The notes under the pieces: generated by a model
Seen by the model: only the letters and a program-made list of their open reading frames with translations
Databases searched by the model: none
Told to the model about the DNA's origin: nothing
Part shown: positions 3,401 through 61,932 of the stretch, piece after piece
Layout of the letters: every line of letters begins with the position of its first letter
Numbering within the stretch: position 1 is the first letter of the stretch
Program-made: the position numbers and the translations under genes
Assembly: GCA_963402885.1 (NCBI GenBank)
Contig: OY727094.1
Span: 3,474,501-3,538,500, forward strand
Source of the DNA: Antedon bifida
Taxonomy: Eukaryota > Echinodermata > Crinoidea > Comatulida > Antedonidae
Length of the DNA stretch: 64,000 nt
Direction: 5' to 3'

Positions 3401-6400
3401 CAAATTATATATATTTTTTTATTAAAATTGTTTTTTTATAATTACTATGCAGATGCACAGGAATATTGTGAGATAAATTAAAACATTAAAAGTGGTATAA
3501 AATAGGTAAAAATAACAATCATTAAAATTGGGTTTTAAATTTTTTTTTTTTAAATTTAATAGATACCCCATTTCCCTCTCGCCATCCAAAAAACACAAAA
3601 AATCAACCTATTTTTTTTTAAAGTACTGTAACTACAGTATGTAATTTCTTATTTTATTTTGTTCCATTTGTCAATAAGTGTAGCTTTCGTTAGTTAATAA
3701 ATAAATGAATAAAATATGTTTCTTAAAAGAGTCAAGATCATACTAAAAATTGTCTTCTTCTAGACAGAAACGTGTTATTTTGACAGAGTTAATTTATCCT
3801 GACAGGATTAAATTAAAAAGAAATTTTAATAATGGATCCTTGGTTTTTGAATTAATTATAATTTACATTGTAAAGAATAAAAATTTAAACGCATTTCTAC
3901 TCAACACGCTGAATAATAGAGAGGTTGCGAACACGTTATATCAACTTGCTGATGATGTCATGGGAAGGTCAGTTCTAATTATCTTTGTATTAATATATCG
4001 ACATTTATACAAGGGTGTGTGTTGTATGTTCAATACAAGGATTCCATACAGCTTATTTCATGTTCTGCTATGCATTGTAGATTGTAATTTTGTTTCTTTT
4101 TATTTGTCTGTTTTGGGTTGTCTAACCATTTACTACTATTTGGTCTTTCCTTTCCTTTTACATAATTATATCTCTGTTGAATTTGGCAGTAATTGTAATA
4201 AATAAATAACTGGTTAAATAGCATATGAATAAAGTTACCTCCATTTTCTTGGATTTTAAAAAAATTCTTTTTAAACAGATTAAATTGCGTTCCTTAAACA
4301 GTTAACAGTTAAACCCCGATCAATTGGGTGTTGCAACACAGTTAACTGGTTAACTTTTAGGTGCAATGCTAAATCATGGTTACAATAATAATATTTATTT
4401 GTAACTCTCCTTTAAAGCAGAGGAACACACTCGTAACGAGAGGTTCGAGCTGTAAAAAAATGTTTACAAAATAAAATACATAACTACCGACATATATCGC
4501 CTGATACAATTATAACAGAAAGAAAGTTTATTAATATTTACAATATTAAAGTATAATGTTGATATGACTAATAGACAATCGCCATTTATATTGATTCATA
4601 ACATCTTTCAATTTCGTTTGTTTACATTTGAAAATTCTCATAAACTTGCTATCACAGGAAGTTTAACATTATCATTGCTTTAAGATTAGCGCAAATCTAA
4701 ACAAACTTTAGCAACAACTAACACTCCAAAGTGATATAAACTAAGTCGTTGATTTTATATCTTGGTATAAAAGTTCCTGCAACTAAGCAACTAAGATTTC
4801 AAAGTGACATAAAAATTGCTGTGTTTAATCTTAACCATCAGTTTTTGGGTTTAAGTCTCTCGTTGACGCTACTCAAGTTGGTAAGTTTCTGACCCGTTGA
4901 ACCTAAATCTCTTCCACTCTAAACATCCGACCATTTTATATCCACGCCAACCGTTTTAATCACTGCCATATAGTAAAAGATTAAAAGAAATGTCTTCATG
5001 TCTTCCAGTCAGAGGTTACAGAACAATTTACTCTTGCCAGTTATTTTAATTTCCCATAATATGAAATCATCAATTTAACTAAGAGCATACTTGGTGTGTT
5101 AGTTATACATCTGTTGTGTTAATAAACCTGAATACCTGATTGATAGAAAGGAGTAAGAATCTTGATAACGATTTAACAAAATACTTTGATTGGATTCCAT
5201 AAGGTAATTAATGAGAAGTGTACACATAAAATAAATAATAATTGATTTAGTACAGTAGTACAGTACAATGAAATAGTAATACTAAATACATACAGTAGAT
5301 TCTTGAAAATTATCAAATAGATTGTAATGTTAGTATCAATACAGTATGTATTCTGTGTCTACATTCAGTAGGAGGTGTTCTTTTATTTAAAGTTATTCAC
5401 TAAATATTCTCTGATAACTGCGTCGTCTATTTCGTGCCTAGCTTACCTGGATAAACCGACAATAGCCCTTCCTTCTCAAAGAGCGAGCTATAACTCTGGT
5501 ACAATATGCAATGTGCCTTGTACGCTAGTGGTTGATTAAATCTATCTCAAAATCCTGATTCAAATCTTTCCTTTAAAATACAATCTTATGGTTGTACAAT
5601 CTAAATACAGAACCCAAATTATAAGTCTTGTATTATTATACAGAAATGCTACTTTATTTTAACATAATAAACAAAATATTTAAAATTTAACAGGATTATA
5701 GTCGACAGGATAGTGTTTTGAAATAAAAGTGTAGTAACTGTACATATACTATAGATGATGTTGTGATATAAGCTGTTGAGTAGACTATAACATCATTGAC
5801 GATGACAGCTCACGCAGACCTAATGTCTGGCTTTTGTAGCCGCTCATGTAAAATCACGAGTCTATTTTCCCTATGCACATTAAAGGTAACACAAATAGTG
5901 TACGTCTCCGCCCCTTGGATGCTCTCAGAGGGAAAGATCGGCTCATCAGAATAAATTGCTAAGAAATCCAGAACCGAATATACAAATATATATTTATTTT
6001 CAAAGCTAAAAATAGTTTTTTTCAAAATGTTGTTTATTAATCATTGTTTAGGATACTTGTCAATTTTTCTCTGTTTCTTTCAAAGATTCAGTTTTAAAAA
6101 ATATTCCAAGATGATAAGAATAGATTTTAAAGTTGGATGTCAACATAAAAATAATTTTAAAGAAATAATAGAATAAGGGACCATGTACAAATTATTCTGT
6201 CTACACTATCAAACTAGTTTGTTGAAGTGTGATGTGCCAAAATATGGTAGTGATATGCCCAAATATGGTAGTGATATGCCCAAATATGGTGGTGATTTAT
6301 ATGACATCATGTCCATATATGTGCACATCAAATTTGTTGTTACATACAGTTTGGACAGAGCTTTATAATGCAGTTACTGATGATAATAATTAACTGCACA

Positions 6401-9400
6401 ACGTTTGTTGTAAAAGTTTAAGCATGTATGATAGCTCCAAAAAGCTTGCTGGGTATCATTAAACAAGTTAAAGATTAAACAAAATGAAGATTTACTGCAG
6501 TAACTGACAAAGTCCCTAATATTCTTCAGAATGTGTATCCACAGTATAAAAAAAACCCAATTTAATAGCAGTTTATATTTATTTTAGAAAATTGGAAGGA
6601 TGCATGTAAAAAAAAAATAGTTTAACCAAAATTTATCAGTTACAGTGCCTGTCTCAATATTTATGAAAGAAAGTGTTTTATACACCAACAGTTTAAAGTT
6701 GAACGACCTCTAATATAGGTCTACGTGTTGCACTGGTGGTAGTAAAAATGAATAAGTAGAACGATGTAACAGTATATTCAAAATAATAATGGTATGAAGA
6801 GTTTATGAATTTATGGTGACAGAGGGCGATTAAATTTAGTGGATCACGTAGGAAATTACATGGCTTATTATTACATTTTCACATAATAGCAACATGGCAT
6901 ATGTAGGCCTATGTAGAACTACCGTGTCTGTTTTACTGGTACTAACAGTGAATAACTAGAACGTCCTCGATTTTATGAATATTATGGTTGTATATAGTTT
7001 TATGAATTAGGGAGATTAAATTTGGTGGATCACGTATGAAATTACACAGTATATGAGTATAGATATTATTACATATTCACATATATAACATCAATTAGGG
7101 CAGTGACATTTGGCGTGTCATACAAAGTACAATGTATATAGTCACGTACTTACACTAATAAGCATGAATGATGATAGGGCAGTCAAATTGATTGGTTTGT
7201 TATTAAAATATGTTTATAACCGCAGTAGTACAATATTCACACTATATTAAAAGTACAGTAATTGGTATATGTGTGGTGTGAGGTAAAACATAAATTTATT
7301 TTAGCAATTTAATTGGATAATAGACAGATTATTTTCTGTATTTGTCCTGCCTTATAAAAAAGGAATAAGGCATTTATTTTGATACATACCAATGAAAAAG
7401 CATTATCTTTTGAGATAAAAAACAGTACAATATTTGAAAACAATGAATAACATAAAGCCAGGAACAAGTACATAACGAACGTCGCCATCATAACTGGTTG
7501 TATAAGTCTGTTTCGTTATTACGACACGATTCAACTTGAGGCCTTAATTACTTACATGAGAAAGTCAAACATTATGGTGTAGGTATACATTGTTTCTTGA
7601 TGGGTGGGCTAGCCTCATCGCAATTCAATTTCCAGTGTGTTTTGGTATTCCACCCCACTGTACAGTAATGCGGGTGTTGGGTGTTTTTCTCCTTTGTACT
7701 GTAGGCTTACTCTGTTCAGTGTTATTTGGCAATAAAAGATTAAGTATAAGATTGCAGAGAACTATTTTTTAAATAAAATTTAAAATATTTTATGCATGAA
7801 CATTTTATATTTATATCAACATATTATCATCATTAATATCAACATAAAATATATTGATATTAACATCATATTGATATCGACATATCATCATATTGATATC
7901 AACATATTATCATATTGATATTAATATATCACCATTTTTATATCAACATATTATCATATTGATATCAACATTTTATCATATTGATATTAATATATCACCA
8001 TTTTTATATCAACATATTATCATATTGATATCAACATATCATATTGATATCAACATATCATGTTGATATTAATATATCACCATTTTTATATCAACATATT
8101 ATCATATTGATATCAACATATTATCATAGTGATGATAAACATTCTATCTTGATACTGTAACTATATTAAACAGTTCCAGATGGAGCAACACTCAAAGCAA
8201 AACTCCAAGTTGGAGCGATATTGGAATACTAATGAAAAGTATCATTGTTTCTTGCAGGTGATGGACACAACAAACCAATTCTTCAACATGAGTATCTTCG
8301 TTGCTGTATTTGTACTATTTGCCATAGTCTGTTTGCTTGTTCTACTCAAGTTTATGTGGAGACAACGTGCAAGACAGGTAACAAAACACCACCTATCTTA
8401 CTGAAAATTATATTTAATACACCTTAGTTTACTGAAAAAAAAGTAGTAAAGCCCTCTACAGGCCTAAAGTATCTAGTTTAGTAAGAGGTATTAACAATGA
8501 TAAAATCATTTGCTAAGTGATACACAAGGCGTGTTGCTGAGTTGCTTTAAAGGATAATCTCAAGTTCCGCATCAACGCATCGAACAAAGAACATGTGAGA
8601 AACGGCCGAATAAGGATGTTAATACCGTGAGCGAGTTCTCTTGCAATCTAAAGATTATTTTTCAATTATTGCATCTTTGCCGTTGTGCTTTCGCAAAGCC
8701 GAGACATCTGTAGAATAAGCTGTAAACGAGAGCGGTTACTGCATCTTAAACGTTGTCGATGATCATTGTGGATAAGACGTATAATCCGACCGTGGAACAA
8801 TAGACTTCTGCCGCGGTAGTTTTCTCTAAGCAGGAGCTTATTATTCTACGTTCAACTGAATTCAACACAACTTATGATATCGTAAATATCGTATATTTTA
8901 TCGAATGTAGAAAAAATGTGTTACTATATTGTAAATGTTGACGACGTTTGATGAAAGCTAATCTGAGTTTATCCTACCTTATATATAATTTGCAGTTTGT
9001 CTTTTATATTTAATCCTCCTGTTGTTCTGTTTCTAGACAACAAGAAACAATTTCACACTTCATTGTCAAATTATTATCGATATTTAGGCCTAATATTCGT
9101 TTTCGATAAACAAATAAATTTCATAATGTTTTTTTATTATCCTTAAGTGCGTTGAGTATTGAATTTTGTCGTTGTTTTGTATCTAGATACAATGAAACTA
9201 TAGTAAAAGCAATGTCTTACTTCGATATCAAAATAATATAATTTTGAATTCTGTTTGTTATTCTTAATCATGTTGTTGAGCATCAAATACAAACATTTAA
9301 AGAATATTAAGATATAGCTATGATTCAATTATTAATAAGTTTTCAAATCTAGTTATAATCACAAAGTTGATTTGAAGTTTAAATATTTCTCATTTACAAT

Positions 9401-61780: not shown

Positions 61781-61932
61781 TTAAGCTCTGTCTACACTAT
61801 CAAACTAGTTTGACAACAAAAGTGTGATGGTAGTGATGCCCAAATATGGTAGTGATATGACGTCATCATGTCCATCTTTGTGCCCATCACATTTTTTTGC
61901 ACATAAAGTTTGATAGTGTGGACAGAGCTTTA
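61781..61932 (+). mobile_element. MITE-like element, copy 9
   Basis: TTAAGCTCTGTCTACACTAT and GATAGTGTGGACAGAGCTTT are inverted ends. It has one CCAAATATGG, and the usual TGACATCA is here TGACGTCA (61858-61865), a perfect CRE-type palindrome. Confidence 0.8.

Follow-up and report, generated by a model that had tools for sequence, protein, structure and literature searches.

We characterized a short repeat that recurs in a 64,000-nucleotide stretch of the genome of the crinoid Antedon bifida (contig OY727094.1, positions 3,474,501 to 3,538,500; hereafter, the window) and found that it is a high-copy non-autonomous DNA transposon, a miniature inverted-repeat transposable element (MITE) of ~110–180 bp, whose CArG boxes, CC(W)6GG, decay like other internal sites of the element. 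An initial annotation of the window had proposed that a transposon spreading SRF sites could rewire expression, and had itself set neutral decay of the boxes against this idea. Given that the CArG boxes decay like the rest of the element, co-option of these sequences as SRF sites is mostly unsupported. Taken as a whole, our results are probably best explained by a PIF/Harbinger-type MITE moved in trans, in which the CArG look-alike is part of a site for a transposition protein.

The element was defined from an alignment in which 204 nhmmer hits were reduced to 109 and, after merging, to 102 elements (76 from 80 small loci, 10 from the window, 9 from loci L001–L007, and 7 from random sampling). 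In the consensus, the two ends are identical over ~24 bp and lie in inverted orientation, with the terminal sequence AGCTCTGTCTACACTATCAAACT. Inward of the ends, both arms carry a poly-A/T stretch and then GTGATRTGCCCAWATATGG, a subterminal motif in direct orientation on the left and inverted on the right; the left part usually holds zero to two extra tandem motif units, and the centre is short (TAGTGATATGACATCATCATG). The CArG box is the 10-bp core of this 19-bp motif, which usually occurs two to four times per element, and in the consensus it is found in all three motif copies, across both arms. Short, non-coding, bounded by inverted terminal repeats, and high in copy number, the element has the features of a MITE. 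Its median divergence from the consensus was 5.6% (94 copies). After seven of 71 copies were dropped because their length fell outside 85–200 bp or their orientation was unclear, the 64 oriented copies were 107–182 bp long and held 1.39 perfect CArG boxes on average, with none in 11 of these 64 full-length copies. Forward units, counted with the left arm and at up to four substitutions, were matched zero, one, two, and three times in 3, 20, 36, and 5 copies, respectively, so that the number of units varies as the initial annotation had said. A cyclic AMP response element (CRE)-like site in the centre, TGACGTCA, as in the window copy at 61783..61930, was considered as an ancestral CG decaying to CA and TG alike, and was rejected because alignment positions 93–94 were overwhelmingly CA (CA 71, TG 4, TA 2, CG 2).

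Searched with a draft consensus of the element (nhmmer), nine of the ten window copies were significant members of one family, and the copy starting at 47794 was a 31-base end fragment only (E = 2.7); all ten starts with shared ends given in the initial annotation are present, nine clearly and one as a weak end fragment. The window contains 17 CC(W)6GG motifs, 15 of which lie inside nine elements, exactly as had been counted, and the two others at 1899 and 20519. Base composition predicts ~4 such motifs per 64 kb and ~0.09 per 1.4 kb, close to the earlier estimate of ~0.1 for the latter; for comparison, the window has a single GG(W)6CC, the motif in reverse, and it lies within an element. The enrichment of CArG boxes in the window elements is thus far above chance.

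The family extends throughout the genome, of which 315.6 Mb in 27 contigs, 11 of them large, were searched. The exact 20-base element end was found 14,079 times (7,096 + 6,983), and its reversed control 0 times; with family copies and exact CArG-bearing matches also found genome-wide, the description of a MITE-like family carrying CArG boxes proved correct beyond the window. In a random sample of 110 kb from 11 contigs, with positions chosen in advance, 8 stretches reached E < 0.01 and 7 of these were unambiguous, compared with 10 in the 64-kb window, which corresponds to one copy per 14–16 kb in the random sample versus approximately one per 6 kb in the window. Across the window and 19 other loci, overlapping locus L008 being excluded, 27 stretches passed E < 0.01, or 25 copies after two split copies were joined. 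Extrapolation from these small samples places the family at roughly 20,000–30,000 copies. In the genome as a whole, CC(W)6GG occurred 65,912 times versus 17,178 for GG(W)6CC. Family elements contained 6 of the 12 CArG sites in the random 110 kb and 15 of the 17 in the window (21 of 29 over 174 kb), and one of the family's three CArG sequences was present at 27 of the first 100 listed CC(W)6GG sites, which may belong to copies. Another repetitive source of CArG-like sites in this genome is a tandem array at C1:451372-454581, where 17 listed CCATAATAGG motifs fall within 3.2 kb at steps of ~91 bp or multiples thereof. Among the exact family matches listed, C1:17.2-23.9 Mb held none for the internal-box pattern and two for the right-arm pattern, with matches frequent on either side; this gap may mark a centromeric region.

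Decay of the CArG boxes was first assessed in the 102-element alignment, with gapped boxes excluded and end positions kept out of the comparison; this sample favours young copies, given that 76 of the 102 elements were chosen by an exact end in the first 2.8 Mb of contig C1. Perfect boxes numbered 46 of 74, 43 of 79, and 43 of 68 at the three positions, where base-specific change elsewhere in the interior predicts 58.1%, 58.1%, and 58.9%, and pooling the three boxes gave 132 of 221 perfect versus 58% predicted from other internal sites. C and G sites had changed in 11.3% of cases within boxes versus 8.6% outside (permutation P = 0.92 for excess conservation), and A and T sites in 3.2% versus 3.8% (P = 0.25). 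C sites alone had changed nearly twice as often in boxes as elsewhere (15.7% versus 8.4%), and in the internal box both C positions (75% and 73% identical) were less conserved than any other position of the element. Counted from the least conserved, the three boxes ranked 42nd, 36th, and 63rd of 105 internal ten-base blocks.

In a second test, the whole genome was searched with exact flanking anchors while one ten-base block was left free. The exact sequence GCCCAAATATGGTAGTGATATGACATCATCATGTC occurred 1,459 times and, with the CArG box free, at 3,556 places, meaning that the internal CArG was intact in 41.0%; freeing the neighbouring internal block TAGTGATATG yielded 2,232 places (65.4% intact), a contrast that is overstated given that only two of the 105 blocks are better kept than TAGTGATATG. 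Among the first 100 of the 3,556 places, tallied by eye, 44 were exact, 3 others kept CC(W)6GG, 11 started with CT, 8 with TC, and 16 with TT, and these 16 double changes versus 11 and 8 single changes suggest that a TT-type lineage has multiplied. The form TTAAATATGG, which lacks the internal CArG, had 514 exact 35-base matches genome-wide and had lost the internal box only, with three listed places (C1:8235159, 10131581, and 28604488) overlapping an exact right-arm CArG. Two results weigh against neutral decay. G sites changed slightly less in boxes than elsewhere (6.8% versus 8.7%), and in the right arm, where the exact sequence occurred 1,617 times, the CArG box was intact more often (63.4% of 2,551 places) than the neighbouring block GCACATCACA (58.3% of 2,772; p = 2e-4 genome-wide), although base composition alone predicts a small difference in the same direction (0.552 versus 0.518). 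Together, the tests gave no sign of family-wide protection of the CArG boxes or of selection for SRF binding, and the conservation above neighbouring element positions that the initial annotation had looked to was not seen.

The sequence CCAAATATGG is presumably a muscle-actin-type SRF site, as the initial annotation had it. That the element spreads working SRF sites, many of which the host keeps as enhancers, would agree with the 15 of 17 window CArG boxes inside the element, with the genome-wide excess of CC(W)6GG over the reversed motif, with the slightly better preservation of the right-arm box, and with the location of four copies between T-box exons. This genome probably encodes an SRF-type reader, given that MADS-box exons were detected (three matches at two loci, on C15 and C14), and the Helitrons of Arabidopsis, which have distributed CArG-like PHERES1 sites, offer a precedent (PMC6914339, excerpt). 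We nevertheless consider this reading quite improbable, since the boxes decay like other internal positions across the 102 elements, the block adjoining the internal box is intact at a higher rate genome-wide than the box itself, 11 of 64 full-length copies lack a perfect CArG, and the form lacking the internal CArG has reached 514 exact matches. Family-wide decay tests would miss a small functional minority of copies. Single copies could be SRF-bound, and there is a slim chance that a minority act as SRF-bound enhancers, for instance some of those in introns of genes like the TBX5-like one of the window or other regulators of muscle or heart type; if so, they would be an animal counterpart of the Helitron–PHERES1 case, seeded by a transposition-protein site that coincides with a CArG box.

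The transposon may instead have used the CArG for itself, for example by drawing in host SRF for movement in particular cells, which would account for the presence of the box in every one of the three motif copies of the consensus and in both arms, and would tolerate the TTAAATATGG form to the extent that this form is not motif-free, as the three places overlapping a right-arm CArG indicate. Yet the TTAAATATGG form multiplied with fewer CArG boxes, and a repeated motif near the ends of a DNA transposon can be explained without SRF, making such a use unlikely. In the explanation that we prefer, an autonomous relative elsewhere in the genome would make proteins that move the element by binding to its ends and to the repeated subterminal motif. 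The CArG look-alike would be present as part of this putative binding site; after insertion, it would mutate like the remaining element, and host SRF would not be needed. PIF/Harbinger elements require, besides a transposase, an ORF1 protein that has a Myb-like domain (PMC2836001, excerpt), and the Myb-like protein of zebrafish Harbinger3_DR binds a 9-bp subterminal motif (PMC9710019, excerpt). By analogy, we infer that the repeated CArG-containing motif may be the site for a Myb-like transposition protein.

The assignment to PIF/Harbinger derives from the insertion sites. Of 71 copies with both flanks, 60 had T at −4 and 67 had T at +2, and A occupied −2 and +4 in 64 copies each. C at −5 (29 copies) and G at +5 (33 copies) were both in excess of window base composition (p = 3e-7 and 1e-9). 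The resulting preference, T-C-T-W-A ahead of AGCTC and T-W-A-G-A behind GAGCT, fits C|TWA|G and hence C|TNA|G, which is targeted by NuwaII, a group within the PHIS (PIF/Harbinger) superfamily (PMC4482050, excerpt). Identical TWA pairs were also more frequent than in shuffled flanks (31 versus 23.1 in the 71 copies). The element is most likely a MITE of the PIF/Harbinger (PHIS) superfamily with a NuwaII-like C|TWA|G target. Several observations count against this placement. The 3-bp duplication was identical in only 29 of 47 oriented TWA pairs, with a borderline association between the two sides (Fisher p = 0.058); the mismatched pairs were one-sided (15 TAA/TTA versus 3 TTA/TAA); and the element ends start with AG if the duplication is TWA, where the ends of most, though not all, NuwaII families start with GG (PMC4482050, excerpt). 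In these 47 oriented flank pairs, the prevailing mismatch direction makes both ends TAAAGC when read inwards. Part of the flank pattern would suit a Spy-group element, inserted between AAA and TTT without duplication: in most flanks, AA precedes GCTC and TT follows GAGC, and there is frequent disagreement between the third bases on either side. AAATTT is preferred by this group, and ~60% of the insertions of one Spy element in human cells were at AAWTT (PMC4482050 and PMC11304231, excerpts). However, the Spy target lacks the C-TWA-G that is made up by C at −5, T at −4, A at +4, and G at +5, and identical TWA pairs exceeded the shuffled number, even if the oriented pairs remained borderline; we therefore regard a Spy origin as unlikely. 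The flank pair tables did not fit a Tc1/mariner-type TA duplication or a TTAA duplication. When flanks were compared with the sampled loci, no empty sites were recognized among the matches listed, most of which showed the family itself.

Potential sources of the transposase are numerous, with at least 150 DDE_Tnp_4 matches scored of 215 candidates in the genome. Linking any of them to the element was unsuccessful, which counts against the explanation that we prefer: the element ends were absent at 8 DDE_Tnp_4 loci on contig C8, all of one group with nearly equal scores, and in the 1.2–1.6 kb downstream of 18 further representatives, where the downstream sides only were covered. The autonomous transposase with the same ends that the initial annotation had suggested searching for was therefore absent from the 26 DDE_Tnp_4 stretches examined, 18 of them downstream only. 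A 17-base end-like stretch in locus L103, with five mismatches, was within chance by our own estimate and was set aside. Of the 150 listed DDE_Tnp_4 matches, 16 are crowded together at C8:21.5-22.2 Mb; their scores are almost the same and each has one in-frame TAA, as would be expected had a Harbinger-type gene been absorbed into a repeat block.

The ten window copies lie on both strands. On the plus strand, copy 1 (6196..6362) has a degraded left end and CArG boxes at 6259 and 6280; copy 2 (11600..11901), with boxes at 11642 and 11860, is split by 154 bp of other DNA (11672-11825); copy 5 (25600..25772) has three units, one with a CArG box at 25671 and the remaining two reading CTAAATATGG and TCAAATATGG; and copy 6 (36362..36501) has boxes at 36406 and 36440. 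Copy 10 (61783..61930, plus strand; box at 61840), previously taken for a fragment, is a full-length element. On the minus strand, copy 3 (14585..14693; boxes at 14604 and 14636) has a shortened right arm, copy 4 (17448..17602; boxes at 17494 and 17549) includes one TTAAATATGG unit without CArG, copy 7 (42065..42192) has one box at 42115, copy 8 (47798..47828) is the weak end fragment and lacks a CArG, and copy 9 (51639..51752; boxes at 51640 and 51693) has a truncated right arm.

Copies 6 to 9 have T-box exons on both sides. Three T-box domain exons were identified on the minus strand, at 55084..55164 (profile positions 1-27, E = 1.3e-5; C7:3529584-3529664), 39885..40166 (positions 26-119), and 33911..34096 (positions 106-168, E = 6.4e-15), together with a probable fourth at 31421..31477 (positions 164-182; E = 0.04, below the family cut-off). 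Given that they agree in order and strand, we infer that the four form a single minus-strand gene. Among solved structures, the main exon at 39885..40166 matched TBX5 best (148.8 bits), followed by TBX1 and TBX3 (~137 bits). Copies 6, 7, and 8, earlier placed in introns of this gene, do lie between T-box exons, as does copy 9, whereas copy 10 is located farther upstream than any of the T-box-domain exons found. With a copy approximately every 6 kb in the window and every 14–16 kb in the random sample, intron copies are to be expected and are no evidence of function. Three other repeats were noted in the window: approximately ten tandem units of ~183 bp at 23419-25278, most with the palindrome AAAAAATCCCTGTACTATAGTACAGGGATTTTTT or a near copy; a 25-bp minisatellite of ~700 bp at 13732-14431, with three open minus-strand frames encoding a repetitive peptide; and 17-bp repeats resembling TTTGGACGCGGTCGTAT at 18531-18625 and 20711-20839, 2.1 kb apart in the AT-rich window.

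No report of this MITE family was present among the literature matches listed for CArG, MITE, and SRF with transposons, and the literal sequence of the element end had no match in a literature text search. The repeat is a new family of an already known kind of transposon. One short transposon family supplies a sizeable share of the genome's perfect CArG boxes, and motif-based prediction of SRF targets in this genome would be misleading unless the family is masked. It also provides a worked case of a strong motif enrichment in a transposon that is explained by the element's own anatomy and fails a decay test.

Like the family described here, the Arabidopsis PHERES1 Helitrons are a transposon family that has taken MADS-box-type motifs to many places, but their function is backed by chromatin immunoprecipitation sequencing and expression, in contrast to motif presence alone and neutral-looking family-wide decay here (PMC6914339, excerpt). 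With the NuwaII group, the element shares the C|TNA|G target preference and inverted repeats whose ~24 bp fall within the group's 13–46 bp range (PMC4482050, excerpt), and DDE_Tnp_4 transposases are present in this genome; it differs in ends that start with AG instead of mostly GG, in a duplication that is identical in only 29 of 47 pairs, and in having no autonomous element linked to it. Tourist-like MITEs such as rice mPing are similarly short and non-coding, can reach thousands of copies, and are moved by the ORF1 protein and transposase of a PIF/Harbinger relative, as would be the case for our element (PMC2836001, excerpt). However, mPing measures 431 bp compared with ~110–180 bp for the A. 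bifida family (PMC2836001, excerpt), which resides in an animal genome and carries tandem subterminal units that contain CArG boxes.

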